Shown piece after piece: positions 22,991 to 57,239 of a DNA stretch of 64,000 nucleotides. The notes under the pieces are model-generated. The model was not told the origin of the DNA. It made no database searches and was given only the letters and a program-made list of their open reading frames with translations. The stretch's first letter is position 1. Each line of letters starts with the position of its first letter. Origin of the DNA: Impatiens glandulifera (taxonomy: Eukaryota; Streptophyta; Magnoliopsida; Ericales; Balsaminaceae); NCBI RefSeq assembly GCF_907164915.1, contig NC_061862.1, positions 121,671,533 to 121,735,532 on the forward strand. The letters run 5' to 3'. The position numbers and the translations under genes were made by a program.

Positions 22991-23009
22991 TGTGTCTGTC
23001 AGTAGTCGG

Positions 23010-23591: not shown

Positions 23592-23630
23592 GCTTGCTTG
23601 CTCCGTGTTGCTTGAGTATTGAAATTAACT

Positions 23631-23642: not shown

Positions 23643-23644
23643 AT

Positions 23645-25086: not shown

Positions 25087-25199
25087 TATACCAGTTAAGG
25101 TTCTTTATGTTTACGACATTCATTAAGGATTTGAGAATTTTAAATCTGAATTAATATGATACATGTGTAAGTGTTCAAAAATACAAATAGATATAAAAT

Positions 25200-25665: not shown

Positions 25666-25689
25666 AATTGATATCTTAATTCCCTAACA

Positions 25690-32792: not shown

Positions 32793-33965
32793 TTAGTTAA
32801 AAAGTTGAATTTATTTTGATAAAATATCCCGCGTTCATCTAATTTTAGTGTTTAATTTAAAATTTAAAGTTTTATTAGTCTATTTGGTTAAAAGGATGTA
32901 CTTGTTTTGTTAGGTTGCAAGTTCGAAACATACATATAACATTTTTAATTTTATTTTTAACTATTTTAAGTTTATGGGCGGGTCAACCCACAATCAAACT
33001 CAAGTATCCCTTTAATCTCACATATATATCCAAATTAACCACAACTCTCGACCCAACAATTTAGATACTTTAAAAAGTAAGAATCATTATATATATATAT
33101 ATTAGTTAATTAAAAAGTTGAACTTATATTGTTAAAATGTCTCACGTTCATCTAATTTGGTGTTGAATTTAACATATAAAATGTTATTAGCCTAGTTGGT
33201 TAAAGGGTTGTACTTGTTTTTGTTAGGTTTCAAGTTCAAAACATAAGTATAATATTTTAAATTTTTTAACCGTTTTAAATTTATTGGTGGGAGGGTTAAC
33301 CCACAATCCAACTCAAATATCCATTTACTCTCACATATATATCCAAATTAACCACAGCTCCCGATCCGACAATGAGGATACTTTAAAAATTAAACATAAT
33401 TATATATATATATAGATTAGTTAGTTAAAAAGTTAAACTTATATGTTAAAATGTTCCGCGTTCATCTAATTTTGTGTTGATTTTAAAATATAAAGTGTTA
33501 TTATCCTAATTGGTTAAAGAGTTGTACTTGTTTTGTTAAGTTGCAAGTTCGAAACATACATATAGCATTTTTAATTTAATTTTTAACCGTTTTAAGTTTA
33601 TGGGTGGGTCAACCCAAAATCCCATTCAAGTATCCATTTACTTTCACATATATATCCAAACTAACCATAGCTCTCGACTCGACAATTCAGACACTTATAG
33701 TGTTAAAATGTCCCGTGTTCATATAATTTGGTGTTGAATTTAACATATAAAATGTTATTAGCCTAGTTGGTTAAAATGTTATACTTGTTTGTTATGTTAC
33801 AAGTTCCAAACATATATGTTACCGTTTTAAGTTTATGGGCGGGGGCGGGTTAACCCACAATTCGACCCAAATATCTATATATTCTCACATATATATCTAA
33901 ATTAACCACAACTCTTCACCCGACAATACAAAAACTTTAAAGATTAAACAGCAATATATATATAT
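32540..33965 (+). repeat. ~313-bp satellite, five units, with SINE-like core
   Basis: Units start near 32540, 32873, 33186, 33499 and 33757; the middle three are 313, 313 and 258 bp. Each reads TATTAGCCTAGTTGGTTAAA (box-A-like TAGCCTAGTTGG), then TGCAAGTTCGAAACATA (box-B-like AGTTCGAAAC), then GGGCGGGTCAACCCACAATC, then a (TA)n tract. The tRNA-like head in every unit suggests a SINE that was tandemly amplified. There is no coding capacity. The array stops just left of the large Mutator element. Confidence 0.8.
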
Positions 33966-34239
33966 ATATAAATTATCTTAATTTTAACATGATGACAATT
34001 TAACAGTTTATCTTTCTCATTAATTATTGGTCTTTTTATAGGGACTATTAGTACAGACCAGATCTTCTGCTACCAATTTTCCTGTTCCCCTGTTGCGGAC
34101 CAATCAAAATGCAGGATTATTATTATATTAATAAATCAAAGTTGGATTGAAAGGAAGAGAGAGAACCCGGAACCCGGATTCAATTCTGGGTTCAGCATAA
34201 ACGCACTTAAACGGAATGTAGAGTTAAAGTATTGAGTGA

Positions 34240-37200
34240 AGAATACTTCTCTCCAGGTGCCATGTAAAACATAATGTAGAGATACAATATTGAGTGAAGC
34301 ATACTTCTCTCCAGGCGCCATGTAAAAAGTGAAGCATACTTCACTTCAATTAGTTTATATGCCTAAGGTTAATGTAAAACTTCCAACACATCAATGTAAA
34401 GACATTTTAGCGTTTATGTAAAAACATTAATTCATTCATGTATGTAAACCCATTGGAGAATGTGGAGAGACTGTTTTTAGTGAAGCATACTTCACTCCAA
34501 ACTCCATGTAAAACGGAAGTGAAACATACTTCACTTTAAGCGTCATGTAAAGCGAAAGTGAAGCATACTTCATTTTAAGAGACATATAAAACAAAAGTGA
34601 AGCATACTTCGCTCCAAGCGCCATGTAAAAAGGAAGTGAAGCATACTTCACTTCAAGCGCCATGTAAAACAGAAGTGAAGCGTACTTCTCTCCAGGTGCC
34701 ATGTAAAATAGAAGAGAAGCATACTTCACTTCAAGCGACATATAAAACAGAAGTGAAGCATACTTCGCTCCAAGCGCCATGTAAAACTGATGTGAAACAT
34801 ACTTTACTTCAAGCGCCATGTAAAACAGAAGTGAAGCATACTTCACTTCAAGCGCCATGTAAAACAGAAGTGAAGCATTTTTCACTTCAATTAGTTTATA
34901 TGCCTAGAGGTTCATGTAAAACCTCTAACACATAAATGTAAAGATATTTTAGCTTTAATGTAAAAACATTTATTCATTCATGTATGTAAACCCATTAGAG
35001 AATGTGGAGAGACTGTTTTTAGTGAAGCATACTTCACTCCAAGCGCCATGTAAAACGGAAGTGAAGCATACTTCAATTTAAACGCCATGTAAAACGGAAG
35101 TGAAGCATACTTCACTTTAAGCGACATATAAAATAGAAGTGAAGCATACTTCGCTCCAAGCGCCATGTAAAATGGAAGTGAAGCATACTTGACTTCAAGC
35201 GCCATGTAAAACAGAAGTGAAGCATACTTCTCTCTAGGTGCCATATAAAACAGAATGTAGAGATACAATATTAAGTGAAACATACTTCTCTCCAGGCGCC
35301 ATGTAAAATGGAAGAGAAGCATACTTCACTTAAGGCCACATATAAAACAGAAGTGAAGCATATTTCGCTCCAAGCGCCATGTAAAATAGAAATGAAGCAT
35401 ACTTCACTTCAAGCGACATATAAAACAGAAGTGAAGCATACTTCGCTCCAAGCGCCATGTAAAATGGAAGTGAAACATACTTTACTTCAAGCGCCATGTA
35501 AAACAGAAGTGAAGCATACTTCACTTCAAGCGCCATGTAAAACAGAAGTGAAGCATATTTCATTTCAATTAGTTTATATGCCTAGAGGTTCATGTAAAAC
35601 CTCCAACACATAAATGTAAAGATATTTTAGCGTTAATGTAAAAACATTTATTCATTCATTTATGTAAACCCATTAGAGAATGTGGAGAGACTGTTTTCAG
35701 TGAAGCATACTTCATTTTAAGAGACATATAAAACAAAAGTGAAGCATACTTCGCTCCAAGCGCCATGTAAAAAGGAAGTGAAGCATACTTCACTTCAAGC
35801 GCCATGTAAAACAGAAGTGAAGCGTACTTCTCTCCAGGTGCCATGTAAAATAGAAAAGAAGCATACTTCACTTCAAGCGACATATAAAACAGAAGTGAAG
35901 CATACTTCGCTCCAAGCGCCATGTAAAACTGATGTGAAACATACTTTACTTCAAGCGCCATGTAAAACAGAAGTGAAGCATACTTCACTTCAAGCGCCAT
36001 GTAAAACAGAAGTGAAACATACTTTACTTCAAGCGCCATGTAAAACAGAAGTGAAGCATACTTCACTTCAAGCGCCATGTAAAACAGAAGTGAAGCATTT
36101 TTCACTTCAACTAGTTTATATGCCTAGAGGTTCATGTAAAACCTCCAACACATAAATGTAAAGATATTTTAGCTTTAATGTAAAAACATTTATTCATTCA
36201 TGTATGTAAACCCATTAGAGAATGTGGAGAGACTGTTTTCAGTGAAGCATACTTCACTCCAAGCGCAATGTAAAACGGAAGTGAAGCATACTTCACTTTA
36301 AACGCCATGTAAAACGGAAGTGAAGCATACTTCACTTTAAGCGACATATAAAATAGAAGTGAAGCATACTTCGCTTCAAACGCCATGTAAAATGGAAGTG
36401 AAGCATACTTGACTTCAAGCGCCATGTAAAACAGAAGTGAAGCATACTTCTCTCTAGGTGCCATATAAAATAGAATGTAGAGATACAATATTAAGTGAAA
36501 CATACTTCTCTCCAGGCGCCATGTAAAATGGAAGAGAAGCATACTTCACTTAAGGCCACATATAAAACAGAAGTGAAGCATATTTCGCTCCAAGCGCCAT
36601 GTAAAATAGAAAAGAAGCATACTTCACTTCAAGCGACATATAAAACAGAAGTGAAGCATACTTCGCTCCAAGCGCCATGTAAAATGGAAGTGAAACATAC
36701 TTTACTTCAAGCGCCATGTTAAACAGAAGTGAAGCATACTTCACTTCAAGCGCCATGTAAAACAGAAGTGAAGCATATTTCATTTCAATTAGTTTATATG
36801 CCTAGAGGTTCATGTAAAACCTCCAACACATAAATGTAAAGATATTTTAGCGTTAATGTAAAAACATTTATTCATTCATTTATGTAAACCCATTAGAGAA
36901 TGTGGAGAGACTGTTTTCAGTGAAGCATACTTCACTCCAAGCGCCATGTAAAACGGAAGTGAAGCATACTTCACTTTAAGCGCCATGTAAAACGGAAGTG
37001 AAGCATACTTCACTCCAAGCGCCATGTAAAATGGAAATGAAGCATACTTCACTTCAAGCGCCATGTAAAACAGAAGTGAAGCATACTTCTCTCCAGGTGC
37101 TATGTAAAACAGAATGTAGAGATACAATATTGAGTGAAACATACTTCTCTCCAGGCGCCATGTAAAAAGTGAAGCATACTTCACTTTAATTAGTTTATAT

Positions 37201-38450
37201 GGCTAGAGGTTCATGTAAAACCTTTAACACGTCAATATAAAGACATTTTAGCGTTCATGTAAAAACATTTATTCATTCATGTATGTAAACCCATTGGAGA
37301 ATGTGAAGAAACTGTTTTCAGTGAAGCATACTTCACTCCAAGCGTCAGGTAAAACGGAAGTGAAGCATGCTTCACTTTAATCGCCATGTAAAACGGAAGT
37401 GAAGCATACTTCACTTTAAGCGCCATGTAAAACAGAAGTGAAGCATACTTCGCTCCAAGCGCCATGTAAAATGGAAGTGAAGCATACTTCACTTCAAGCA
37501 CCATGTAAAACAAAAGTGAAGCATACTTCTCTCCAGGTGCCATGTAAAACAGAATATAGAGATACAATATTGAGTGAAGCATACTTTTCTCTAGGCGTCA
37601 TTTAAAAGTGAAGCATACTTCACTTCAATTAGTTTATATGCCTAAAGGTTCATGTAAAACCTCCAACACATTAATGTAAAGACATTCTAAAGTTCATGTA
37701 AAAATAGTTATTCATTCATGTATGTAAATCCATTGAAGAATGTTGAGAGACTGTTTTCAGTGAAGCATAGTTCACTCCAAGTGCCATGTAAAACGGAAGT
37801 GAAGCATACTTCACTTTAAGCGGCATGTAAAACGGAAGTGAAACATACTTCACTTTAAGCGACATATAAAACATAAGTGAAGCATACTTCGCTCCAAGCG
37901 CCATGTAAAACGGAAGTGAAGCATACTTGACTTTAAACGACATATAAAACAGAAGCGAAGCATACTTCGCTCCAAGCGCCATGTAAAACGGAAGTGAATC
38001 ATACTTCACTTCAAGTGCCATGTAAAACAGAAGTGAAGCATACTTCTCCAAGCGCCATGTAAAACGGAAGTGAAGCATACTTCACTTCAAGCGCCATGTA
38101 AAACAAAAGTGAAGCATACTTCACTTTAATTAGTTTATATGCCTAGAGGTTCATGTAAAACCTCCAACACATCAATGTAAAGACATTTTAGCGTTCATAT
38201 AAAAACATTTATTCATTCATGTATGTAAACCCATTGGAGAATGTGGAGAGACTATTTTCACTGAAGCATACTTCACTTCAAGCGCCATGTAAAATAGAAG
38301 TGAAACATACTTCACTAAAAGCGCCATGTAAAACGGAAATGAAGCATACTTCACTTTAAGAGAAATATAAAACAGAAGTGAAGCATACTTCGCTCAAAAC
38401 GCCATGTAAAATGGAAGTGAAGCATACTTCACTTCAAACGCACATATTAA
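34240..38450. repeat. ~39-bp hairpin satellite with higher-order structure
   Basis: The unit is GAAGTGAAGCATACTTCACTTC-like (a 9-bp stem around CATA), then AAGCGCCATGTAAAACA. Blocks of units are separated by a ~135-bp spacer (TTAGTTTATATGCCTAGAGG ... GAGAGACTGTTTTCAGTG). A 1220-bp higher-order unit is duplicated: 34436-35655 and 35656-36875 correspond position by position. As 39 is a multiple of 3, long frames stay open on both strands (13-residue repeats such as VKYASLPFYMALG and KHTSLQAPCKTEV). These are not considered genes. Confidence 0.93.
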
Positions 38451-38454
38451 GGTA

Positions 38455-38700
38455 TAAAACAATTTTTCCTGCTGCAAATTCTTTTATAATATATATAAAC
38501 CCTAATATCATTTTATATTATAAAAACTTACTTCCGATTCATCTCTCTCTCTCTTCAAGCTTCTGCCTCTTTTCATGGCGATTCGAATCCGGCTCCCCGT
38601 CTTCCAAAATTTTTTTTGTCAAGAAGATCAAAAATCAGTCTAAAAAATTGTACGTACACCAAAATCGTTAAGTTTTCTTTGTATTTATGAAACCCTAGGA
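38455..38700 (+). promoter_or_regulatory. Possible TIR promoter and start codon
   Basis: ATATATATAAACCC (38491-38504) looks like a TATA box. A CT-rich leader (TCTCTCTCTCTTCAAGC) follows, then ATGGCGATTCGAATCCGGCT at 38575 (MAIRIRLPVF...), a 22-codon frame. The right TIR holds the same block inverted (minus strand, 49181 and down). Such TIR promoters transcribe captured DNA in known Pack-MULEs; here it is inference. Confidence 0.4.
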
Positions 38701-39683
38701 TTACGTACGCACAATAAGGTCGTTATTTCGTTCATATTTAGGAAACTCTACTCCGAAAATGTCACGTTCAATGAAAATCCTTCGTATTTAGGAAAATCTA
38801 CTTAAGGTTAGGTTCAATTACGGTTTTGTATATTATTTCCACGAAACCCTAGTTATTGATGTAGAAAAACTTATTTTTGTTATTAACGAAACATATTTTT
38901 TGAATGTGTAAGCAACAAACAACGAAATCGTCCCAAAAACTATAGGCAAAGAATTAATTTTTTGCCTCAGTTAAATATAATGGACATGAGAAGGAGTATA
39001 TATGTTGTGAGATATGTGGGAATTTAGGGTATAATGAATGTTTATTATTTGTTTTACTGCGATTCTTAGCGACATATATAAGATAAGATCATTATGCCCG
39101 TCTATCTATCATTTTATTAGATATATGTTATCAATAATAATCTACTTTAGGTATATCAAGTCTCTTTACAAAGATGAAAATTTTTTCTACTTCATCTCTT
39201 CAATAATAACAGAAAGGCGTTTGTTGGCTAATGCACTTAAGGACACAGATAACCAACATTTTGTATTGCTTTGTGACAGGTGAGTCGGATTGGTTTGTCT
39301 CCTATATATCATGATTTCATATCCTTGAGGAACATGCTGATCAATTTTTGTTTTGTTTTCTTTTGCAGTTGTATACCGTTGCATGATTTTAAATACGTCT
39401 ACCGCTATTTGATAAATTCAAATATCAGTTTCATTGACAGGTATGTGACATGTTTTTAGTCATATATATTACAAGTACAAAATCATATACATTCAATTGC
39501 CTTTGAATTTGAATTATAATTCCAATTTCGATTCTGATTGAAGAAAACATAGCCATATTTCTTTAGAGGGTTATTTATTATGGTTGGTATCTGATTAAAC
39601 ATTTTTTTTGTTTTCCTTTAGTGATGCATGTTCTTTGTGTGTCCAGCTTTGACGATCCTAGGCCACATGGAATCGATAGATAT

Positions 39684-40455
39684 TGATAGAAAAATTAAGT
39701 AGATTAATTTTAAACCGGTCACACATTACAATTTTTAAATATTTATTCTAAATAATCAAAAAGGGAAAAATTGTTAGAAAATAATTGTTAATACTTATGA
39801 AAGGTTTAATGAATAAATAAATTAAGTTCAAATAAAAATGTTAAACCGCTAAAACATATCAAAATTGAAAGCGACACAAGTTACGGAAATCTTAGAGAGA
39901 TAAAGAAATCTTACGAACGATCCAAAACCGGTGTGTCATAAACCGAAAGATTTGTGTGTGTGTTTGTGTTGTATTTGTGCATTACATCAAGAGTGAGTTG
40001 GTGTAACCGGCGAGTAGCGAGTTGGGCTCGACCAGCATTGTAATTGTTGTAACGTTGAAAGTTAGTGGAGATCCTTCTCATAACCTGAGAAGAAGGGGTG
40101 ACGTAGGAGGGTTTGCTCCGAACATCCATAAAAAATCTTGTCTCGTGTTATTTCCTTCATTTACTGCTTACTCACTTAACCTAACCAAAATCAGTCTTAC
40201 TTCTTATATCAAAAACCGGTCCACTCATATCTCTAAAACCTACTCCTTCTAAACATCATCTAAGTTACATACGTTTCTTCAGACTGAAATAGACATTTTC
40301 GCCCTTGAACCCGGTTCAAGAGTCTGTGACAGTTTGCGAAGTACTGAGAACGGTTATAGTCTCTAACCGGACTATCACCAAAGTGTTGTGTGTTGTGTAA
40401 GCGGCCACCCTTCCAGAAACACCCCGGTCCTCCAAGGGCGTCCCCGATCCTAACA
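39684..40455 (+). repeat. LTR 1
   Basis: 772 bp, TGATAGAAAA...GATCCTAACA. It contains GGGGTGACGTAGGAGGGTTT (from 40096) and CCGAACATCCATAAAA, and ends two bases before the primer site. The first ~90 bp are repeated within the LTR and its upstream flank (TGTTAGAAAA-type starts at 41858, 41950 and 42037 in the second copy). Confidence 0.9.
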
Positions 40456-40457
40456 AG

Positions 40458-40469
40458 TGGTATCAGAGC
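40458..40469 (+). promoter_or_regulatory. Primer-binding site, unit 1
   Basis: TGGTATCAGAGC, complementary to initiator tRNA-Met 3' end, 2 bases after LTR 1. The duplicate is at 42724-42735. Confidence 0.93.
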
Positions 40470-40500
40470 GAGGTTCTTAGCACTCAAGCAACCGAAGAAG

Positions 40501-41547
40501 ATGGGAAGCATGACCCACAGCGATAGGCCATTTATGCTAAACATTGAGGCATTTAGCGGCTGGAAGGTTCAGATGTATTTACATCTGATCACGTTGGATG
40601 ATGAAATGAGCACCATCCTAAAGGAGGGTCCGATAAAGATTAACAAGGAGACGGAAGAATGGACGGCTGAAGATCGAAGAAGAAACAACCTAGACAACCA
40701 TTGCATGAGACATATTTTCAAATCTTTGAACAACAACACTTTCGAGAAAGTCATGGAATGCAATACGGGAAAAGAAGTGTGGGAAAAGTTGATCCAACTA
40801 TTTGAAGGTAGTGATCAAACAAAGGAGAACCAGAAAGAACAGAAGGTTCTAATGGTTTCTGAAAGCAAGGGAAAATGGGCCGATAGCGATTCGGACGACT
40901 CATCATCTAGCGACAATGATGATAAAGTTGAAACCTGTTTCACGACTAAGAAAGAATCTGAGGTATTTGATCTCTCCTTTGATGATTTTACACGAGATGA
41001 TCTAATTGCTGCACTAAATGACATGGTCATTAAGTATAGAAAACTGTCAAAATCCCTTAATCAAACTATTTCAAAAATTAAATCTGATAGTTCAAAATGT
41101 TCATCTCAAATCAAAGAGGTTGATGTTTCAATAAATGAGATCTCATCTGTGAATGAGAAACTCAAGGAAGAAATTATAAGTTATAATGTTTTAACTTCAA
41201 AGGATGGTATAATTTATGAGAAGCCAACTTCAAGCTGGCTGAAACCTGGGAGAAGGACAGCCAGTTTGTATGACAAGGAAAAACTTGACCGAAAATCAAG
41301 AAATGTTTACCGAAAATCAACCTTTAAAGTTAAATCATCAGCAGGTAGATATACTATACATACACACAACGGAAAATCCATCAAAATAATCAAAGTATGG
41401 ATTCCCAAGGGATTAATAAGCCACGGACCCAAAGAAAAATGGGGACCAGATTTTCTATTGTCTATGAATGTAGGTAAATCAAGACAGGAGCTTCGAAGAG
41501 ACAGCATTGCATCCGGACAACCGGTTGCTGACGAACACATCACATGA
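40501..41547 (+). CDS. Copia gag-like protein, unit 1 (348 aa)
   Basis: The start is the first ATG after the primer site (MGSMTHSDRPFMLNIEAF); an upstream in-frame ATG at 40390 lies inside the LTR and is less likely. Residues ~10-120 match the N-terminal UBN2/DUF4219 part of Copia gag (FSGWKVQMYLHL, CMRHIFKSLNNNTFEKVMEC, KEVWEKLIQLFEGSDQTKEN). The second half of UBN2 and the CCHC knuckle are deleted: QTKEN jumps to KEQKVLMVSESKGKW. An acidic Ser-rich tract (DSDSDDSSSSDNDD) and a Lys-rich predicted coiled part follow. The product would be an incomplete capsid protein without nucleic-acid-binding knuckle. It is an intact frame and could be translated if the LTR is active. Confidence 0.8.
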   Translation: MGSMTHSDRPFMLNIEAFSGWKVQMYLHLITLDDEMSTILKEGPIKINKETEEWTAEDRRRNNLDNHCMRHIFKSLNNNTFEKVMECNTGKEVWEKLIQLFEGSDQTKENQKEQKVLMVSESKGKWADSDSDDSSSSDNDDKVETCFTTKKESEVFDLSFDDFTRDDLIAALNDMVIKYRKLSKSLNQTISKIKSDSSKCSSQIKEVDVSINEISSVNEKLKEEIISYNVLTSKDGIIYEKPTSSWLKPGRRTASLYDKEKLDRKSRNVYRKSTFKVKSSAGRYTIHTHNGKSIKIIKVWIPKGLISHGPKEKWGPDFLLSMNVGKSRQELRRDSIASGQPVADEHIT

Positions 41548-41650
41548 AGGGAACAAGAATGAAATGGCTAACATCCTCACAAAGCCACTTCTCGAGTCTA
41601 TGTTTTCTTCCCTAAGAAATATTTTAGAATTGTTAGATTACAAAATTTGA
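41537..41650 (+). pseudogene. RNase H C-terminal remnant, unit 1
   Basis: In the frame +1 to gag: TSHEGNKNEMANILTKPL, LESMFSSLRNILELLDY, stop at 41648-41650. It overlaps the gag stop by 11 bases. The same junction occurs in unit 2 (43803-43916) and in the minus-strand element at ~22990. Confidence 0.85.
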
Positions 41651-41949
41651 AGAAAAATTGTTAGAAAATAAAGTTCTCCTTAAACTAAACCGTTTTTCCA
41701 AAAAACCGGCCAAACAAATATAAGTTTTTTTTTTTTAAAAAAAAAGGCCAAACAAATATAAGTTTTTTAAAAAACCGGCCAAACAAATATAAGTTTTTTA
41801 AAAACCGGCCAACAATTACAAGTTTTGAATATTTATTCTAAATAATCAAAAAGGGATAAATTGTTAGAAAAATTAAGTAAGTTAATTTTAACCCGGCCAC
41901 ACATTACAATTTTTTAATATTTATTCTAAATAATAAAAAATGGAGAAAT

Positions 41950-42721
41950 TGATAGAAAAATTAAGTAGATTAATTTTAAACCGGTCACACATTACAATTT
42001 TTAAATATTTATTCTAAATAATCAAAAAGGGAAAAATTGTTAGAAAATAATTGTTAATACTTATGAAAGGTTTAATGAATAAATAAATTAAGTTCAAATA
42101 AAAATGTTAAACCGCTAAAACATATCAAAATTGAAAGCGACACAAGTTACGGAAATCTTAGAGAGATAAAGAAATCTTACGAACGATCCAAAACCGGTGT
42201 GTCATAAACCGGAAGATTTGTGTGTGTGTTTGTGTTGTATTTGTGCATTACATCAAGAGTGAGTTGGTGTAACCGGCGAGTAGCGAGTTGGGCTCGACCA
42301 GCATTGTAATTGTTGTAACGTTGAAAGTTAGTGGAGATCCTTCTCATAACCTGAGAAGAAGGGGTGACGTAGGAGGGTTTGCTCCGAACATCCATAAAAA
42401 ATCTTGTCTCGTGTTATTTCCTTCATTTACTGCTTACTCACTTAACCTAACCAAAATCAGTCTTACTTCTTATATCAAAAACCGGTCCACTCATATCTCT
42501 AAAACCTACTCCTTCTAAACATCATCTAAGTTACATACGTTTCTTCAGACTGAAATAGACATTTTCGCCCTTGAACCCGGTTCAAGAGTCTGTGACAGTT
42601 TGCGAAGTACTGAGAACGGTTATAGTCTCTAACCGGACTATCACCAAAGTGTTGTGTGTTGTGTAAGCGGCCACCCTTCCAGAAAAACCCCGGTCCTCCA
42701 AGGGCGTCCCCGATCCTAACA
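41950..42721 (+). repeat. LTR 2 (shared, central)
   Basis: 772 bp, nearly identical to LTR 1 at a 2266-bp offset (for example GGAAGATTTG for GAAAGATTTG, and AGAAAAACCCC for AGAAACACCCC). Confidence 0.92.
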
Positions 42722-42766
42722 AGTGGTATCAGAGCGAGGTTCTTAGCACTCAAGCAACCGAAGAAG

Positions 42767-43813
42767 ATGGGAAGCATGACCCACAGCGATAGGCCACTTA
42801 TGCTAAACATTGAGGCATTTAGCGGCTGGAAGGTTCAGATGTATTTACATCTGATCACGTTGGATGATGAAATGAGCACCATTCTAAAGGAGGGTCCGAT
42901 AAAGATTAACAAGGAGACGGAAGAATGGACGGCTGAAGATCGAAGAAGAAACAACCTAGACAACCATTGCATGAGACATATTTTCAAATCTTTGAACAAC
43001 AACACTTTCGAGAAAGTCATGGAATGCAATACGGGAAAAGAAGTGTGGGAAAAGTTGATCCAACTATTTGAAGGTAGTGATCAAACAAAGGAGAACCAGA
43101 AAGAACAGAAGGTTCTAATGGTTTCTGAAAGCAAGGGAAAATGGGCCGATAGCGATTCGGACGACTCATCATCTAGCGACAATGATGATAAAGTTGAAAC
43201 CTGTTTCACGACTAAGAAAGAATCTGAGGTATTTGATCTCTCCTTTGATGATTTTACACGAGATGATCTAATTGCTGCACTAAATGACATGGTCATTAAG
43301 TATAGAAAACTGTCAAAATCCCTTAATCAAACTATTTCAAAAATTAAATCTGATAGTTCAAAATGTTCATCTCAAATCAAAGAGGTTGATGTTTCAATAA
43401 ATGAGATCTCATCTGTGAATGAGAAACTCAAGGAAGAAATTATAAGTTATAATGTTTTAACTTCAAAGGATGGGATAATTTATGAGAAGCCAACTTCAAG
43501 CTGGCTGAAACCTGAGAGAAGGACAGCCAGTTTGTATGACAAGGAAAAACTTGACCGAAAATCAAGAAATGTTTACCGAAAATCAACCTTTAAAGTTAAA
43601 TCATCAGCAGGTAGATATACTATACATACACACAACGGAAAATCCATCAAAATAATCAAAGTATGGATTCCCATGGGATTAATAAGCCACGGACCCAAAG
43701 AAAAATGGGGACCAGATTTTCTATTGTCTATGAATGTAGGTAAATCAAGACAGGAGCTTGGAAGAGACAGCATTGCATCCGGACAACCGGTTGCTGACGA
43801 ACACATCACATGA
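42767..43813 (+). CDS. Copia gag-like protein, unit 2 (348 aa)
   Basis: A near-duplicate of 40501-41547. About five residues differ over the whole frame (RPLML for RPFML, PERRTAS for PGRRTAS, IPMGL for IPKGL, ELGRDS for ELRRDS, and one in the upstream LTR frame). The high identity points to recent duplication of the LTR-gag unit. Domain content and lesions are the same as in unit 1: partial UBN2, no zinc knuckle, acidic Ser tract. Primer site at 42724-42735. Confidence 0.8.
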   Translation: MGSMTHSDRPLMLNIEAFSGWKVQMYLHLITLDDEMSTILKEGPIKINKETEEWTAEDRRRNNLDNHCMRHIFKSLNNNTFEKVMECNTGKEVWEKLIQLFEGSDQTKENQKEQKVLMVSESKGKWADSDSDDSSSSDNDDKVETCFTTKKESEVFDLSFDDFTRDDLIAALNDMVIKYRKLSKSLNQTISKIKSDSSKCSSQIKEVDVSINEISSVNEKLKEEIISYNVLTSKDGIIYEKPTSSWLKPERRTASLYDKEKLDRKSRNVYRKSTFKVKSSAGRYTIHTHNGKSIKIIKVWIPMGLISHGPKEKWGPDFLLSMNVGKSRQELGRDSIASGQPVADEHIT

Positions 43814-44214
43814 AGGGAACAAGAATGAAATGGCTAACATCCTCACAAAGCCACTTCTCGAGTCTATGTTTTCTTCCCTAAGAAATATTTTAGAATTGTT
43901 AGATTACAAAATTTGAAGAAAAATTGTTAGAAAATAAAGTTCTCCTTAAACTAAACCGTTTTTCCAAAAAACCGGCCAAACAAATATAAGTTTTTTTTTT
44001 AAAAAAAAAAGGCCAAACAAATATAAGTTTTTTAAAAAACCGGCCAAACAAATATAAGTTTTTTAAAAACCGGCCAACAATTACAAGTTTTGAATATTTA
44101 TTCTAAATAATCAAAAAGGGATAAATTGTTAGAAAAATTAAGTAAGTTAATTTTAACCCGGCCACACATTACAATTTTTTAATATTTATTCTAAATAATA
44201 AAAAAGGGAGAAAT

Positions 44215-45377
44215 TGATAGAAAAATTAAGTAGATTAATTTTAAACCGGTCACACATTACAATTTTTGAATATTTATTCTAAATAATCAAAAAGGGAGAA
44301 ATTGTTAGAAAATAATTGTTAATACTTATGAAAGGTTTAATGAATAAATAAATTAAGTTCAAATAAAAATGTTAAACCGCTAAAACATATCAAAATTGAA
44401 AGCGATACAAGTTACGAAAATCTTAGAGAGATAAAGAAATCTTACGAACGATCCAAAACCGGTGTGTCATAAACCGGAAGATTTGTGTGTGTGTGTTTGT
44501 GTTGTATTTGTGCATTACATCAAGAGTGAGTTGGTGTAACCGGCGAGTAGCGAGTTGGGCTCGACCGACATTGTAATTGTTGTAACGTTGAAAGTTAGTG
44601 GAGATCCTTCTCATAACCTAAGAAGAAGGGGTGACGTAGGAGGGTTTGCTCCGAACATCCATAAAAAATCTTGTCTCGTGTTATTTCCTTCATTTACTGC
44701 TTACTCACTTAACCTAACCAAAATCATGTATATGGGAATATAGACATTTATCCCCCCGAAGTGTTCTTTCTCTATGGAAAGTCGGAGGAAGAGCGACAAC
44801 CAAATGGAATCGGTAACGACGAGGCAAGCAAAAGGAAGCCCCCTCATTTTAAAGTGTCTCACGGTGATATAATATCTTTTCAATCAAATGATGCGAGAAC
44901 CCGCGGTCTCCTTGATCAGCTCCTGTGTATGTATAGAAAGAAGGGTTAGAGATAAAATGTAACTTGGCCTCTTGGGATGTGAGCCACCACCCAAAGGAAT
45001 ATTTTGTCATAGAAGAAAATGAATCACAGGAGAAAAAAGACAGCGTAGACGATAGATTCATCGGATAAAGAGTAAGAACGGAAACGAAGACACTCGAATC
45101 AGACGCAGTGGCAATCTATTAATCCTTATATCAAAAACCGGTCCACTCATATCTCTAAAACCTACTCCTTCTAAACATCATCTAAGTCGCATATGTTGCT
45201 TCAGACTGAAACAGACATTTCCGCCATTGAACCCGGTTCAAGAGTCTGTGACAGTTTGCGAAGTGCTGAGAACGGTTATAGTCTCTAACCGGACTATCAC
45301 CTAAGTGTTGTGTGTTGTGTAAGCGACCACCCTTCTAGAAACACCCCGGTCCTCCAAGTGCGTCCCCGATCCTAACA
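44215..45377 (+). repeat. LTR 3 with a ~398-bp insertion
   Basis: It starts TGATAGAAAA and ends GATCCTAACA. It is more diverged from LTRs 1 and 2 than they are from each other. Between ACCAAAATCA (ends 44726) and CTTATATCAAAAACC (from 45125) ~398 bp replace 9 bp of LTR. Without the insert it is ~767 bp. Confidence 0.9.
44727..45124 (+). other. Foreign insert resembling mitochondrial rps4
   Basis: The insert is more GC-rich than its surroundings. A frame at 44761-44949 includes FKVSHGDIISFQSNDARTRG (~44848-44907), very like the S4-domain motif of angiosperm mitochondrial ribosomal protein S4 (KVSHGDIISFQ.NDA..RG). The flanking part (SEEERQPNGIGNDEASKRK; WDVSHHPKEYFVIEENE in another frame) is not recognised as rps4, so it may be diverged or a mosaic of organelle pieces. 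It is a probable NUMT fragment, or template-switched organelle RNA, inside an LTR. Confidence 0.45.
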
Positions 45378-46559
45378 GATATACAAAGCACATGTTACCT
45401 GAAATTGAGAAGAAATATTTTCGAAAGGGTTCGTAGGTAATGTGAAACTCTTAAGATGTTTAAGTATTCAGGCTTGGCTTCTATAATGTAGATCAAACTC
45501 ATCCAAAGATAAATTTTGTTGTTTACATGCTCTTCAGATGTTGCTTAAATGATTTTATTTATCAGTGGTTCACAATGAAGCGTCAACATGCAATTGTGGT
45601 GATGGCTGACAGTCTGTATTATAATATATTCTAGGATTACTACAAGGTAATTTTTACTCTAAATAGTTGTAACAAATTGAGAATATTGGGCTAACTCGGA
45701 TGTTGTCCCATCTTTATACAGCTGGGATTTGATGGAAGGAACTGTTATTCTGATGAGTATTACCTGCCCACATTTTTCTATGTGAGGGAGAATAATATTT
45801 TTCTTCCTGAACTCGATGAATCAACATCACCTTTAAGATTATAATTTCTTATTTCAATTATTTTACCATGTATTATTGTATAGATGCTTGATTCCGGTGG
45901 GATTTCCAATTGGTCAGTAACCCACGTTGATTGGTCTGAAAGAAAATGGCGTCCAAAATCATACGAAGCACAAGATATTACTTATGAACTCTTGAAGAAT
46001 ATCACTGTAGGATTTACAATGTACATCTTTATTGGCTGTCTTCTGTTAATAATAATAATAATAATATGACTTGTTTTCTTGTTGTTGCAATCGATTGATG
46101 TAAGTGTGCATGAAACAAGTGATGAAAGAGTACGTGTTAAGATTTTTTACTTTATTTTTTTTCATTTGGAGGCGAATTTGTAAAGAAAATAAGATCGTGT
46201 GATGTGCTGTGTTGCAGAGGGTTCAACAACTGAGAGCTTGCATATGGAACGGAATGCAGAGACCTTGTACTTGTTTGGAAGGAAATTTATGCCTGAAGCA
46301 CTTGATAACTTGATGGATCTTTTCTCAAATTACACATCATCAGTATAAATGGGTAAACCATCATCGTTTTTTAATTCTTTGGTTGGGTCAATGTCAACAA
46401 CAATTGGTTGGTTTATGACCATCAATCACCACCTTCATTCTTCCTTCTTTTGTGTAGCTAAGCTTATGAGTATGTTGTATTATCGGATGGAGTGTATTAT
46501 TTTTTTCTCTCTTAATTATCATGAACTTTAATGATAGATTCTAAATGTGTCCTAAACTT

Positions 46560-46770
46560 TGATGATTTATTCAAGGGGAGTATAATTCCCTTTCACTTTA
46601 AATAAGTTAATTGTGTGGTGATGTACTTTGTTGTTTGTATACCAGTCTCCACAAATTAATCTTCTTCTTCAGCTTCTATCTCAATAAAATTTACATTTCC
46701 TTCCCAGTTAGGGCACTCCCATTCAAAATGCCTAAACTTATTTCAGCCATAGCGCTTTAATCTATTAGGG
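46560..46770 (-). pseudogene. Copia gag zinc-knuckle scrap
   Basis: Minus strand reads NKFRHFEWECPNWEGNVNFI then EIEAEEEDLF, like the second half of a Copia gag zinc knuckle and the acidic tail after it (GHF..ECP.WE..AN..E.EEEE). It is short and broken. Confidence 0.45.
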
Positions 46771-47629
46771 ATTTATCATAAGATCTTCCTTCATCTATAC
46801 GAATCTCATGTATACTATCATAATGTTTGACAAAATCACAAGTACTAACTGATATGTAGTCTAATTAGTCTGCTCCCACTTATCATAAAGATGTTCTAAA
46901 GAATTTGGGTTGAATTCAATATATAAAGCGTTATTAATTTAGTTTGTTAGAAAATAACCGGTAACTATATTTGAGTTTGAACAATTATAAAATTAATTAT
47001 TTATTAAAAAAAATCAAGAATCTCATATGAATATTGAAATATATATTAACTATATATGTATTAACAAATTAATAATACATTTTTTTTAATTCAAATTCAT
47101 CTGTATTTCAATTTCACTTGTTTTCAAACAAAGCAGCCTGATATTTTTGTGTCCAATTTCCTTTTAATTCTGCTTGTAGTTTGTATTATTTCTACATTTC
47201 TTTCTTTTATGGACCACTCCTCCATAAAGTAAAAAATAATCATTTTAAGCTTAAGAAAAAAAAACATCCTCTCTTTATCTCTATACTAAGTCAGGATCCA
47301 ACTGCCATCTCTGAAATGAGATTTAGAGGCCACAAATGTTGGATCTAAAAACTGGACATGATATGTGGGTCTAAATAACAAGTGTTAAAAGTGGGTTGAG
47401 ATTGTAATAGTTAAGAGAATGAATTGAATACAGAATATACTGTTAAACCTAGCTAACCAAAAATGTCATTTTTCTTTCAGAAAAAGGTAACTTACCACAA
47501 TACGAATAGTGATAGAGACTGCATATATTTGTAAAATGAAGAAAAAATGAACCAATCTTGTTAGTGATCTTCATAAATATTGATAACTATGATAGAAATT
47601 CAGGAGGAAACATGAAAAGAAGGTAACTG

Positions 47630-48660
47630 TGTAGTTATTCATCCTCTGGAAAATAGCTCTGCTGGTCAACACCGCACTGATAATGACACTTATACCTGGT
47701 TCAGTCGGCACAATGTCGGAAGCGCTTCTGGCTGCATCAGTGGCATCAGCAATCGCAATACCGATATCTGCCTTTTTGAGAGCTGGTGCATCATTAACAC
47801 CATCGCCTGTCATTCCACAAATGTCCTTCTTTTCTTGCAGCTTCTTCACAATTTCATACTTGTGCTCTGTTAGGGAAGAAGAAGATGATCAATAATCAAG
47901 GGATATGAGAAGCTTGGTATCAAAAATAAGGAAAAGCATTTTTACCAGGGAAGACTCCAGCAAAACCATCGGCTTTTTCAATCAACTCTTCAACAGGAAG
48001 GGAAGCAATTCTTGAATCCTTATCTTGACCAAGTAGAGTGGCAGATGGATACATGTTTGTTCTCATTCCAAGTCTACGTCCAGTCTCCTTGGCAATAGCA
48101 AGTTGATCACCTGGGAAGGGAATGATGAACAAATAACACTTCTCTTCTATGAGACATAAAAACCATAACTTTAACTACATGTTATCATCTTGACATTTAC
48201 ACCAAGATTTAGAGCTCTTCGGATGGTTTCAGCACTATCATACCTTAGTGGATCAAAGAGCGGTAGGAGTCCAACAAATTGTCATGGACCACCTGCACTG
48301 TCTTTTTATTTCTCTGCAACTACATGAAATACAAAAGAAAGGACTTGATTGTTAGTTAATCATGCAAATGAATCACGTGGGAGATGATTAACTGAAATGA
48401 TTATGAAGATTAGAAACCTGTCTTGCAACACCCAAAGAACGCAACCCACAGTCAACAAACTTATCAATAATGCTATGGACCTTCTTCTTCACATCCTCTT
48501 TGGCATTGCAAAGGGTTAAGATCTGTTTCCATGTAATAAAGACAAGAAGAAGATGATAAATAGCCGTGTTCTCTTCCATAAAAGTTGAAAAAAAATAAAA
48601 AAAAATAGAGGTACCTGTTTTGGGGCACCTTTACTAGCACGATTTCTAACAGAGAAATCG
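47630..48660 (-). pseudogene. Captured plasma-membrane H+-ATPase (P3A-type) fragment
   Basis: Minus-strand exons with GT/AG-type borders: 48660-48615 ([10 protein letters not shown], nucleotide-binding-domain motif KGAPEQ with E to K), 48522-48418 ([30 protein letters not shown]), ~48313-48190 ([28 protein letters not shown]), ~48118-47942 ([30 protein letters not shown]), 47866-~47630 ([40 protein letters not shown]). These are the C-terminal part of the N domain and the P-domain hinge GDGVNDAP. The phosphorylation site DKTGT, actuator domain and transmembrane segments are missing. Stops and frame slips occur (for example after FDPLRY). Retained introns show DNA-level capture. It lies convergent to the GT14 fragment. 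Confidence 0.88.
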
Positions 48661-48818
48661 CATATGTACAACAACGAATCACTACACACTTCAGGAGATC
48701 CAATGTTGCATTAACATCATTCCAAAGACCACAAAGAACCTGCGACGCATCCCCTATCAAATGTCATTTTGCGAGATGATTGTAGAGGAGAATACTTTAT
48801 CTTCAAATGTCAAGTGTT

Positions 48819-50828
48819 TGGGACGATTTCGTTGTTTGTTGTCTGTACATTCAAAAAATATGCTTCGTTAATAACAAAAATAAGTTTTTCCTACATTAGT
48901 AACTAGGGTTTCGTGGAAATAATATACAAAACTGTAATTAAACCCAACCCTAAGTAGGTTTTCCTAAATACGAAGGATTTTCATTGAACGTGACATTTTT
49001 GGAGTAGAGTTTCCTAAATATGAACGAAATAATAACCTCAATGTGCGTACGTAATCCTAGGGTTTCATAAATACAAAAAAAAACTTAACGATTTTGGTGT
49101 ACATACCATTTTTTAGACTGATTTTCGATCTTCTTGAATAAAAAATTTCTAGTAGACAGGGAGCCGAATTCGAATCGCCATGATAGGAGGCAGAAGCTTG
49201 AAGAGAGAGGGATGAATCAGAAGGAAGTTTTTATAATATAAAATGATATTAGGGTTTATATATATATATATTATAAAAGAATTTGCAGCGGGAAAATTTG
49301 TTTTATACCTTAATATGTGCGTTTGAAGTGAAGTATGCTTCACTTCCATTTTACATGGCGCTTGGAGCGAAGTATGCTTCACTTCTATTTTATATGTCAC
49401 TTAAAGTGAAGTATGCTTCACTTCCGTTTTACATGGCGCTTAAAGTGAAGTATGTTTCACTTCCGTTTTACATGACGCTTAGAGTGAAGTATGCTTCACT
49501 GAAAACGGTCTCTCCACATTCTCTAATGGGTTTACATACATGAATGAATAAATGTTTTTACATGAACGCTAAAATGTATTTACATTGATGTGTTGGAAGT
49601 TTAAATAAACCTCTAGGCATATAAACTAATTGAAGTGAAGTATGCTTCACTTCTATTTTACATGGCGCTTGAAGTGAAGTATGCTTCACTTCTGTTTTAC
49701 ATGGCGCTTGAAGTGAAGAATGTTTCACTTCCGTTTTACATGGCGCTTGGAGCGAAGTATGTTTCACTTCTGTTTTATATGTCTCTTGAAGTGAAGTATG
49801 CTTCTCTTCCATTTTACATGGCGCTTGGAGCGAAGTATGCTTCACTTCTGTTTTATATGTCGCTTAAAGTGAAGTATGCTTCACTTCCGCTTTACATGGC
49901 GCTTAAAGTGAAGTATGCTTCACTTCCGTTTTACATGGCGCTTGGAGTGAAGTATGCTTCACTGAAAACAGTCTCTCCACATTCTCCAATGGGTTTACAT
50001 ACATGAATGAATAACTGTTTTTACATGAACGCTAAAATGTCTTTACATTGATGTGTTGGAGGTTTTACATGAACATCTAGGCATATAAACTAATTGAAGT
50101 GAAGTATGCTTCACTTTTTACATGGCGCGTGGAGAGAAGTATGCTTCATTCAATATTGTATCTCTATATTCTTTTTTACATGGCACCTGGAGAGAAGTAT
50201 GCTTCACTTTTGTTTTACATGACGCTTGAAGTGAAGTATGTTTCACTTCCGTTTTACATGGCGCTTGGAGCGAAGTATGCTTCACTTCTGTTTTATATGT
50301 CCCTTAAAGTGAAGTATGCTTCACTTCCGTTTTACATGGCGTTTAAAGTGAAGTATGCTTCACTTTTGTTTTATATGTCGTTTAAAGTGAAGTATGCTTC
50401 ACTGAAAACAGTCTCTCCACATTCTTCAATAGCTTTACATACATAAATGAATAAATGTTTTTACATGAACGCTAAAATGTCTTTACATTGATGTGTTGGA
50501 GGTTTTACATGAACCTTAGGCATATAAACTAATTGAAGTGATGTATGCTTCACTTTTTACATGGCGCCTGGAGAGAAGTATGCTTCACTCAATACTGTAT
50601 CTCTACATTCTGTTTTATATGGAACCTGGAGAGAAGTATGCTTCACTCAATACTGTATCTTTACATTCCGTTTAACAACGTTTGTGCTTAACCCAGAATT
50701 AAATCCGGGTTCCAGGTTCTTTCTCTTCCTTTCAACCCAACTTTGATTTATTAATATAATAATAATCCTGCATTTTGATTGGTCCGCAACAGGGGAATAG
50801 GAAAATTGGTAACAGAAGATCTGGTTTG
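48819..50828 (-). repeat. Right terminal inverted repeat (2.0 kb)
   Basis: Inverted counterpart of 34054-38935. The inner block 48819-49310 includes the TIR start codon block. The satellite portion 49315-50670 has three spacer blocks, against seven or eight on the left. The outer end is AGATCTGGTTTG at 50828. Confidence 0.9.
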
Positions 50829-50837
50829 CTATTAGTA

Positions 50838-51785: not shown

Positions 51786-52286
51786 AATTTGACGAAATTA
51801 TCCTATTTTCATTTATTTGCATCCGTGGTCATTCGATAATTTTTATTGCTCTAGTGACCACTTTATTTTTTTGGACGAAAATACCCTTATCGTGTAACGC
51901 GAAGGGCCTTCGCGTTTCGCAATGTGAAAAAGTTCTTTATATAAATACTCAAATTTTTTAATTTTCGATATTTTAATTTCTCTCTCTTCTCTCTCTACTC
52001 CTTCTTCTCTCTTTTAGACGGCGACAGCGACAACGACGGTGGAACCCTAAACGAACACATCATATAGATCGATACCAAAAACCTCGTTCTAATATCATGT
52101 GTTCATCACACGGATCGATTTATGTTCTTATCTTCAAATCCTAAACCTGTTCTTATTGTTCATACGGGTTCATATTTTGTTCATCTTATTGTTCATATTG
52201 GTTTTCATATTCGTTGTTCATATTGTCGATGATGATATTTGCAGATAATCTTGTCGATGATCATATGGGTTCCGTTTCAGGGAAGA

Positions 52287-52400
52287 TTCACTTTTCGTTT
52301 CAGGAAAGATTCACTTTTCGTTTCACGTTTCGCTAAGGACTTCGCATTTCGCTAAGTACTTCGTGTTTCGCTAAGGACTTCGTGTTTCGCTAAGGGTCAA
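52287..52400. repeat. ~19-bp TTCGCTAAGGAC satellite (several blocks)
   Basis: TTTCGCTAAGGACTTCGCG and variants are tandemly repeated here and at 52835-52905, 53260-53330, 54833-54965 and 56555-56715. The variant AACGGGAAGGCCTTCGCG is at 62884-62997. CTTCGCG/CGCGAAG makes the units self-complementary. The CG-rich unit stands out from the AT-rich surroundings. Confidence 0.85.
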
Positions 52401-53408
52401 GATTTTTTTGTTATATATAGTTAATCATGACTTCTTTTGACAAGGTATCTACATCACTCATGGTTTTGAAGAGAATCTGTCTTAGGAAAATAAACCTTAA
52501 TAATCTTTACACAGAAACATTTAGATTCTTCACAAAATGTCTTTCAAGAAACGATCATTGAGCTTCCGTTAAGATGGTATGAAATTGATTTTATAAGTCA
52601 TTAAGAAAAATAGTTAATGACTAACGGAATCTATTTCAAACCATCTTCTCTTACCTGGAGCTCAATGATCGCTTCTTCAAAGGCCTATTATGAAGAATCT
52701 AAATGTTTCCATATAAAATTAATAAGATTTATTTTGCTAACACAGAATCTCTTCAAAACTATGACTTTGTTGTTGATACCTTTTCAAACGAGAGAGATTA
52801 CCTATAAAAAATTAAAAAAATTGTACTTAACGTTTCGCTAAGGACTTCGCGTCTCGTTAAGGACTTCGCGTCTCACTAAGGACTTCACGTTTCGCTAAGG
52901 AAGTCGAAGAGGCGCGGGTTTCTGTACGCGCTATACCTTATTTATAATTATTTTCTGCGCGCGATTAACATTTCATTTCTTCTCTCCCTCGCAAAGGCCT
53001 AGTCTCTCTCTAGCCTCTATTAACTTAACTGCTCCCTACCTTGACGATTCTTCCTACTCGTCTTCTCGTCCGTCATTAATTAGGTTTGTTTAGATTTTGG
53101 TTTAAACCATCTTATGTTAATGTTTTTGATTTTTGGTTTAGGGTTTTTGATTTACACCTTCTTATGTTAAGGTTTTTGGTTTTTGCTTGTCTTATGTTAA
53201 GTTTTTATGTTCATGGTTTCTCAATGGTCCTTCCCTCGCTATGGGTTTAGGGTTTAGGGTTTCGCTAAGTACTCCGCGTTTTGCTAAGTAATTCGTGTTT
53301 CGCTAAGTACTTCGCGTTTCTCTTAAGGTTTGCGATGATATTTGTATTTGTTCTTACATTTTTATTGTTGTTCCTTTTGTAGATGGAAGAAACCAGTTAC
53401 TGAGTTTC

Positions 53409-54500
53409 TTGGTAGGATTTCTTGGAAAAGCATCCTCTGCCTCAAGAAGATTGATCACCCAATTCAGATATTTATTCACAGCCCCAGTCTTGCAGTTCTC
53501 AAGAAATATTGTACATCATATGTTGCTTAGGAGGGTAAGCTTAAACTCGAAGAAGATAACATTCATGGTCAATAGGCAGGAACTTGTATTTGGTATGAAG
53601 GAGTATGCCTTGGTTACAGGCCTAAACTTCGACAGATTTCTTGTGGTGAACGAAGAAGATGAATGTCAAGGATGTCCACCTCGCTCGGTGAAATATTTTA
53701 AAGGGAATATGAATGTACGAATGAAAGATTTGGAGAATGTTTTTTATGAAATGCACTAATAAGGAAGATGCATGGTAGATGAGGCCGGTATGCCTGATTT
53801 TCCAATACTTATTTGCATTTTGACCCAAGGAGGATGGTATTTGAAAAAATTCTCCACATGGTGGAAGATGAGGAAGGTCTCCTTTAGAGCCACCCTCAAG
53901 GGTTTGAACAATAACATGAAACGTCTCAGTTCCTTATATTTTAACAAGAAGAAAATGATTACTGATCCTTATGCTCCTTTTGCTTATAACGTTTATGGGT
54001 TCGCACTGGCATTTCAAGTGTGGACATATGAAGTCATCAAAATTTTTGTCCCTAAATTCACCAAAAGGAATGAGCTTAATGAGCCTCTACGCCCAAGATT
54101 GCTAGTTTATCATTCCAACAAGAAGAACACTTTGAACAAGATAAAGTCTTCCCTTCAGACCACAGATCTGACTGAGATGAAAGATTCCTCCATGGAGAAG
54201 AGGTTATATAGTGGTATGGACTTTGAACAAATAGACGAGTCAGGTGATGATTTGTTTGAGGGATTTACAAATGGGAACATATGCAAAGATGAAGTTGAAG
54301 ATGAAGATGAAGATGAAGATGAAGATGAAGATGAAGATGAAGAACCTACTCTCAAACCTGCCACCAGGAAGAGAAAGGCTGAAGCTACTGTCAAAGAAGC
54401 AACCAACCTGAAGAGGAAGCTTGCTTATGAATCGAGTCCCCCCGACATTATTCCAAACCTCCCAATACATACATTCCTAGTTCCCCCACCGCGACGTTAA
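53409..54500 (+). pseudogene. DUF1985-type N-terminal part of MULE Ulp1 gene
   Basis: In one frame: LQFSRNIVHHMLLRRVSLNS and ELVFGMKEYALVTGLNFDRF, matching DUF1985 (H.LL.R......E..F......FG..EFALITGL). Two in-frame TAA stops at 53757-53762 follow. The frame then reopens at 53772 with YNVYGFALAFQVWTYEVI, typical of the second half of DUF1985. An acidic (GATGAA)n tract at ~54297-54340 (about 9 DE pairs) and a basic KRKAE segment come next. DUF1985-Ulp1 genes ride on plant Mutator elements; the role of DUF1985 is unknown. The double stop could be bypassed only by an unseen intron, so this part is called broken. Confidence 0.75.
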
Positions 54501-54540
54501 GTCCTGCATCACCTCTAACACCTTTTGTTGGATGTAAATG

Positions 54541-55320: not shown

Positions 55321-55470
55321 AAATGTTGTTCACCGAAATGATGCGATAAGGAATTGAGAATAATAAGAAGAATACGAAGGTTGAAGATGACGATGATGAT
55401 TTCAAATTATACAACACTACTCCTAAAACAGCATATGAGAGAAATAGGAGGATGAGGAAGTCACCCTTCT

Positions 55471-57235: not shown

Positions 57236-57239
57236 TGAG

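Follow-up and report, generated by a model that had tools for sequence, protein, structure and literature searches.

A Mutator-type element with foldback-type arms and a fused two-gene cargo in Impatiens glandulifera

Several components of the system described here are known already, as outlined in the accounts cited. Pack-MULEs, Mutator-like elements (MULEs) carrying gene fragments, occur in plants, rice among them (Jiang 2004, cited by PMC8277862, PMC6431247, and PMC8903248); a size of 305 bp is given in PMC8277862, Jiang 2004 had no element above 7 kb according to PMC6431247, and PMC8903248 gives widths of 300-15,000 bp for rice. A plant Pack-MULE with tandem terminal inverted repeats (TIRs) has been amplified, with 13 such copies, according to PMC3310237. 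In Drosophila, the foldback element Ssk-FB4 has repetitive arms, captured a host gene, was amplified, and is explained by the FoSTeST template-switching model (PMC8277862), while the Tm1 family of root-knot nematodes is presented as a Mutator/foldback hybrid with composite arms, variable tandem repeats, and mostly 9-bp target site duplications (TSDs) (PMC3169594). How Pack-MULEs acquire host DNA is an open question. Here we describe an element of 16,775 bp within a 64,000-nucleotide stretch of Impatiens glandulifera DNA (contig NC_061862.1), hereafter the window (C1:121671533-121735532; C1, C2, and so on are contigs of one 654-Mb assembly, and labels such as C4:25.70 give the contig and approximate Mb position of a family copy or locus). 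Between hairpin-rich arms it holds fragments of a GT14 glycosyltransferase gene and a plasma-membrane H+-ATPase gene, and most probably a foldback MULE captured this DNA by template-switching repair and then transposed.

Element boundaries and hairpin-rich arms

The transposon spans 34054-50828 and is flanked on both sides by perfect copies of the 9-bp sequence CTATTAGTA, directly outside the arms, which agrees with the single Mutator-type insertion proposed in a preliminary description of this DNA. Two 9-mers at random paired positions were identical in 2 of 200,000 trials, and CTATTAGTA has one further occurrence, at 59657 (expectation in the window, 0.76 matches). The termini are CAGACCAGATCTTCTG and CAAACCAGATCTTCTG. 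No N lies within the element; the sole run in the window (500 N, 29324-29823) is outside it. A search against Rfam returned no match at gathering scores.

The arms pair as inverted repeats. Their outer 671 nt (34054-34724 versus 50158-50828) align without gaps at 92%, and gapped inverted similarity reaches inward to 38941 and 48813, the inner part being 89% alike over 1878 bp. The multi-kb TIRs of the earlier account, here 4.9 and 2.0 kb, are thereby upheld, and the objection that the two arms might fail to align falls away. Tandem 39-bp units make up most of each arm, and their greater number on the left makes the arm lengths unequal. Each unit contains a hairpin with a 7-bp stem and a 4-bp loop (AGTGAAG-cata-CTTCACT). 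With up to three mismatches tolerated, this motif occurs 83 times in the left arm and 25 times in the right, never in the core or to the right of the element, and three times to its left, within an older sibling at 20.5-26.2 kb; shuffled left arms (n = 20) contained 0.05 motifs on average. Spacing between motifs is exactly 39 in 65 of 82 cases in the left arm and 17 of 24 in the right, and a 312-nt arm piece folds better than 100 of 100 shuffles (z = -6.0). Outside the element, the left arm matches the window only at 20.1 and 26.6-26.9 kb (E 1e-5). The terminus CAGACCAGATCTTCTG is symmetric at 10 of 16 positions; other lengths tried gave fewer, in a comparison that had no control set. An imperfect palindrome is reportedly found at the extreme terminus of FARE, a group of foldback elements of Arabidopsis. 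The element reads as one non-autonomous Mutator-type insertion with foldback-type arms.

Two gene fragments and their donors on C2

The preliminary description placed a GT14 fragment (+) and an H+-ATPase fragment (-) in the element, convergent and both with introns, and Pfam, the AHA2 structure 5ksd, and donor matches all bear this out. The Branch/GT14 family is matched above its curated cut-off at 45884-46069 (E 2e-6) and below it at 39038-39283 (E 2e-4); introns of the first GT14 piece lie at 39280-39368 and 39441-39646 (splice sites by eye). On the minus strand, 47920-48174 corresponds to residues 499-556 of AHA2 5ksd and 47571-47888 to residues 555-640, so that the two pieces are consecutive exons, in order. 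The GT14 donor match begins inside an exon at 39210 and ends past the stop codon at 47452. The reading frames are broken: GT14 is interrupted by a nested array and shifted in frame in its last exon, and stop codons occur in an ATPase exon. No transposase was found among the 10 open reading frames (ORFs) run against Pfam, which gave gag, GT14, hydrolase, and sub-cut-off matches; the remainder of the 45 ORFs listed from all six frames (38-50 kb, minimum 60 aa) were read by eye.

For the window copy, the best GT14 donor is C2:45166101-45168931 (+) and the best ATPase donor C2:45206621-45207809 (-). The matching donor pieces are 37.7 kb apart and convergent, with order and orientation corresponding to those of the element. 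Introns included, the window copy differs from the donor by 4.8% in GT14 (1567 sites, 39210-39683 and 45383-46478) and by 5.1% in the ATPase (1188 sites). Both donors read beyond the captured parts: by eye, the GT14 gene continues into exons further upstream and the ATPase gene extends to both ends of its protein; one donor ATPase exon matches PF00122 at E 7e-44. Accordingly, the earlier description of the cargo genes as unrelated is right for their sequences and wrong for their origin, since the best donors, at 45.166 and 45.207 Mb, belong to one C2 neighbourhood. Of the 37.7-kb interval between them, ~22 kb was fetched, and it includes a gene with a gelsolin repeat (PF00626, E 1e-8) whose matches in the Protein Data Bank (PDB) are gelsolin and villin chains. 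A more distant pair of such genes is found at C4:56.525 (ATPase, +) and 56.534 Mb (GT14, -), convergent and ~8 kb apart. A second GT14 gene (C2:45160777-45162317) lies ~5 kb upstream of the donor, with exons 75-83% alike.

A fuller version of the cargo is preserved in the related copy C4:25.70, which matches C2:45166101-45168931 and then C2:45206621-45209454 back to back, amounting to ~5.7 kb of donor DNA from two genes. This copy retains 2.83 kb of the ATPase, from near the N-terminus, matching to C2:45209454. Relative to it, the window copy has lost ~2.16 kb of the ATPase, the deletion through which the segment 48644-48812 now abuts the ATPase fragment; a further ~297 bp is missing at 46478 and is kept in the donor and four other copies.

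These joins also bear on whether two family members flanking the donor genes could have been mobilised as one composite transposon, a model given for other Pack-TYPE families in PMC8903248. We consider this very improbable and set it aside, because the left join (39210) lies inside an internal segment of the element and not at an element end, and because the donor stretches searched are without arms: an arm search gave no matches in L036, L041, and L042, and only two, of 29 and 37 bp, in L040. In addition, the ATPase part of C4:25.70 stops at its position 10285, ~150 bp before arm-type repeats, and two separate donor pieces are joined.

Much of the present length of the element comes from a non-autonomous copia-type long terminal repeat (LTR) array that disrupts a GT14 exon. 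The 16.8-kb span given in the preliminary description holds, with 5.7 kb of it due to this later array; without the array and one GATAT the element measures 11,076 bp (~11.1 kb). Rice Pack-MULE widths reach 15,000 bp, so size alone is within the known range. Both internal parts of the array contain a gag-like ORF, the first matching PF14223 (E 2e-8) and the second nearly identical to it. After LTR1, at the position of a primer-binding site, stands TGGTATCAGAGC, which we take to match a tRNA. LTR1 differs from LTR2 at 2 of 772 sites and from LTR3 at 24 of 772; LTR3 is 391 bp longer, nearly all from one insert of ~389 bp. This insert (44727-45118) has no Pfam match, and its frame presumably resembles a plant mitochondrial ribosomal protein gene. 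At the array site GT14 is uninterrupted in four other copies (C4:25.70, C4:25.73, C4:33.72, and C2:40.47), and the array is therefore later than the capture. C4:33.72 carries a different LTR sequence, at the point equivalent to window 45871-45876.

Family members, junctions, and the proposed origin

Copies with the same ends, for which a genome search had been suggested, form a family. The 201-bp left end gave 40 scored matches among 1349 candidates in the assembly, and 11 pairs of facing ends were fetched (n = 12 with the window element). Perfect 9-bp duplications, read by eye, flank 4 of the 12 (CTATTAGTA, CAGGAAATT, CCTTAAAAG, and GTTATTTGG), and two more have one with a single mismatch (C2:26.34 and C8:46.25). 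The remaining six gave none: at C5:36.26, C4:25.73, C1:80.94, and C4:25.70 the query stopped before the terminus on one or both sides, the flanks of C4:33.72 are inverted, and no match was seen at C6:40.80.

The GT14|ATPase fusion could be read through in 3 of the 11 fetched copies (C4:25.70, C4:25.73, and C4:33.72), the first two of which form a single inverted segmental duplication (97% alike and sharing a flank); at C2:40.47 the GT14 part is followed by an N gap before the fusion point. The same fusion in three other copies implies that it was made once and then moved, and on sequence evidence the composite has transposed. The 150-bp flanks compared (n = 8) are unrelated between copies except for C4:25.70/25.73, the two flanks of C4:33.72 with each other, and 25 bp at 84% between C5:24.36 and the window element. 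It is hardly credible that the structure is a segmental duplication or an assembly artefact with inverted repeats at its sides. The C4 duplication and the inverted flanks of C4:33.72 speak for such an origin, but perfect 9-bp duplications occur here and at three other members, the flanks are mostly unrelated, and the element is free of N. At C4:33.72 (C4:33723100-33747000), the outer flanks are inverted repeats 99% alike over 149 bp, and other LTR sequence lies inside.

Other members carry other cargoes. C5:33.56 has an NDUFAF7-like gene (PF02636, E 8e-17) with donor pieces at C9:31084111-31085874 (94%) and 31086739-31087958 (93%), 865 bp between them being omitted; a later insertion in the donor could also explain this gap. 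The P4-ATPase piece of C8:46.25 is matched by DRS2 chains in the PDB (E 3e-6; no PDB match for a second frame of this copy), and frames of C2:26.34 and C1:80.94 are similar to it by eye; the four P4-ATPase-type frames match no Pfam family at E 0.01. Kinase pieces (PF07714) are present in C1:29.83 (E 2e-6) and C6:40.80 (E 1e-7), the latter also containing retroelement sequence (by eye), and C4:42.90 has no match to the core of the window element.

The three members without GT14 whose left internal segment was compared (C5:33.56, C1:29.83, and C6:40.80) share it up to 39214 and then diverge. At the left junction of the window element, transposon and donor overlap by 5 bp (CAGAA, 39210-39214); that of C5:33.56 has a 4-bp overlap (ATCA), ~28 bp further in. 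Overlaps of 4-5 bp are thus present at both left junctions analysed, and both captures with known donors join two pieces of one locus, with donor order kept.

From the ends, duplications, donor matches, junctions, shared fusion, sister cargoes, and later changes seen in the sequence, we infer the following course, in which the repair mechanism, the skip in a single event, and transposase supplied in trans are the conjectural parts. In an earlier family member, a break or a stall in replication would have occurred just internal to the arms, and repair synthesis would have switched template into a host locus, either the one present today at C2:45.17-45.21 Mb or a diverged allele. Synthesis may then have copied ~2.8 kb of GT14 gene and 3' flank, jumped 37.7 kb on that chromosome, copied ~2.8 kb of the convergent H+-ATPase gene, and returned to the element. 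The composite would have been moved elsewhere by a MULE transposase in trans, leaving 9-bp duplications. The window copy would later have lost ~2.16 kb of ATPase and ~297 bp of GT14 3' flank, received the copia-type LTR insertion in a GT14 exon, and decayed.

Divergence gives a relative order for these steps. Across the gene blocks that were compared, the distance of cargo copies to the donors is K 0.046-0.058 and that among the copies themselves K 0.045-0.064 (0.02-0.03 for the C4 segmental pair); apart from the branch of the C4 pair, inner tree branches are supported at 0.59-0.76. These blocks suggest that capture and spread lay close together in time. The two arms of the window element are more diverged (K 0.079-0.086) and LTR1/LTR3 less so (K 0.032), which makes it likely that the arms predate the capture and that the LTR insertion postdates it, on an uncalibrated scale.

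Several observations weigh against this account. The GT14 3' flank (46478-47452) matches the C2 donor (C2:45167983-45168931) at 85.5% of aligned bases (745/871, with 183 gap columns), compared with 927/972 (95.4%) for C4:25.70 and 782/809 (96.7%) for C2:40.47. The present C2 locus may not be the exact template of this flank, which does not fit the close timing unless it was copied from something other than the donor as it now stands; the mismatch would be explained if a diverged allele had served as template or if the donor had changed afterwards. CAGAA is exact in only one of the three GT14-less members (C6:40.80; C5:33.56 has TAGAA and C1:29.83 CATAA), random junctions give overlaps of at least 5 bp in ~1% and at least 4 bp in 2.6-2.8%, and no overlap is clear at the internal GT14|ATPase join. 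The right flank was used to look for an empty site, and none spanning the insertion point was found: three C2 places match this flank from its base 70 on (81%), short of the insertion point, and the two of them that were inspected (L044 and L045) have only short or simple-repeat matches to the left flank. Finally, ATPase sequence occurs at three more places (C57, C5:24.36, and C94), and the two that were followed, C57 and C5:24.36, lack the fusion. At C57:1500-7000 (L052) the ATPase fragment is 90% alike and does not stop at the fusion point but runs on in donor-type sequence (256 bp at 92%); it was rejected as a cargo copy for this reason, and is a partial copy of the donor gene outside the cargo. 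At C5:24.36, near a family end, the ATPase sequence is limited to the part from 47733 onward, and the 4.7 kb beyond it gave no GT14 match.

The last of these places would suit two successive captures, one gene being taken up first and the other added in a later copy from the same neighbourhood, as would the 37.7-kb distance between the donor pieces and the gelsolin/villin-type gene that separates them. A later deletion or insertion would also explain C5:24.36, and we regard successive captures as unlikely. The donors lie in one neighbourhood in the order and orientation of the element, the fusion point is identical in three of the four other fetched GT14 copies (in the fourth, C2:40.47, the N gap precedes it), and divergence from the donors is alike for GT14 (K 0.046-0.058) and the ATPase (K 0.050-0.053).

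The assignment to Mutator is itself open to two objections. The element ends start with CA, and G is often the first base of MULE ends; moreover, of the 150 PF10551 matches scored among 2919 candidates, inspection by eye placed none between paired family ends, which leaves no autonomous partner among them. Arms from another superfamily that also makes 9-bp duplications are improbable nonetheless, if less so than the composite transposon discussed above. The combination of 9-bp duplications with long composite arms is the Mutator/foldback pattern that FARE is said to display. Tm1, as characterized in PMC3169594, follows the same pattern. The genome, furthermore, is rich in MULE transposases, as the same 150 scored matches attest.

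Capture by template switching in a foldback MULE thus remains our preferred explanation of the window element. As a tentative generalization, which we hold with less than even confidence, the zone just inside the hairpin-rich arms may repeatedly load kb-scale, multi-exon host DNA through template-switching repair that skips along one donor chromosome, with order and orientation kept, intervening DNA dropped, and the resulting fusions spread by transposition.

The coordinates of the element are collected in Table 1. In the neighbouring sequence, 19939-26891 is a second, older foldback-type element, whose outer arms pair at 77% and inner parts at up to 91%; its outer arms are 65-69% alike to those of the big element, with a ~61-bp tandem unit, an LTR retroelement inside, and a possible 8-9 bp duplication (TTGATTAG) with a damaged left end. 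A different MULE-like unit occupies 51880-64000 and may extend past the window; it has a Ulp1 protease domain (PF02902, E 8e-22) and a DNA-binding domain of the mudrA type (PF03108, E 3e-10), together with repeats of type CTTCGCGTAACGTGAAGG and a DUF1985 piece that scores under the curated cut-off. Kinship of the arms with this Ulp1/mudrA element (52-64 kb) was looked for and none was seen. The left flank (33000-33950) is a diverged tandem array with a 240-313-bp unit.

Table 1. Features of the element and its target site, in window coordinates.
Feature	Position	Strand	Remarks
TSD, left copy, 9 bp, CTATTAGTA	34045..34053		perfect match to right copy
Left arm, 4888 bp: terminus CAGACCAGATCTTCTG, tandem 39-bp units, non-repetitive inner part	34054..38941	+	83 hairpin motifs
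Left internal transposon segment	38942..39214		common to three fetched relatives with other contents; last 5 bases (CAGAA) overlap donor match
GT14 (Core-2/I-branching) fragment, first piece	39210..39683	+	donor match from C2:45166101, 94%
GATAT, 5-bp target duplication, left copy	39679..39683		outside LTR array
Non-autonomous copia-type array, LTR-internal-LTR-internal-LTR, TG...CA ends	39684..45377	+	LTRs 39684-40455, 41950-42721, 44215-45377
GATAT, 5-bp target duplication, right copy	45378..45382		outside LTR array
GT14 fragment continued: remaining exons to stop, then 3' flank	45383..47452	+	donor C2:45166584-45168931; 94% as far as 46478, then 85.5% of aligned bases with many gaps
Plasma-membrane H+-ATPase fragment, exons and introns	47454..48643	-	donor C2:45206621-45207809, 95%
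Right internal transposon segment	48644..48812		common to relatives without GT14/ATPase cargo
Right arm, 2016 bp: inverted counterpart of left arm, fewer 39-bp units	48813..50828	-	25 hairpin motifs
TSD, right copy, 9 bp, CTATTAGTA	50829..50837		directly outside arm end

Comparison with described systems

The FARE elements are reportedly large, Mutator-related, and built of modular long inverted repeats with 9-bp TSDs, as is the case here, and the larger ones are said to carry element genes and not host gene fragments of the present kind. A search of titles and the beginnings of abstracts, which left most subscription journals outside its reach, found no plant foldback MULE with captured host genes. 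Since the donors, members with and without the cargo, an undeleted copy, and a second capture are all present in one assembly, the junctions of this family can be read at base level. Its hairpin-filled arms are what a fork-stalling model would lead one to expect, and skipping within a single donor locus offers a signature of such a mechanism that can be tested; a gap-filling or fork-stalling/template-switching model is described as worth exploring for plant Pack-MULEs in PMC8277862. In addition, the family shows a MULE spreading a two-gene fusion over several kb.

Like Pack-MULEs as characterized in the accounts cited above, the present element is non-autonomous, has long TIRs and a 9-bp TSD, carries gene fragments with parents elsewhere, and exists in several copies; it differs from them in its 2-5-kb arms of 39-bp arrays and in the ~5.7 kb of two-gene donor DNA seen in C4:25.70. 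The tandem-TIR Pack-MULE, as reported in PMC3310237, likewise has multiplied terminal sequence and has been amplified, but there whole TIRs are doubled around one gene fragment, whereas in the present family a 39-bp unit recurs dozens of times and several different host genes are carried. Ssk-FB4, as portrayed in PMC8277862, is an animal element with one captured gene, in contrast to a plant element with two donor pieces. Tm1 has a repeat unit of 13-15 bp, compared with 39 bp here, and a two-gene plant cargo such as the one described above is not seen for Tm1 in the corresponding parts of PMC3169594.

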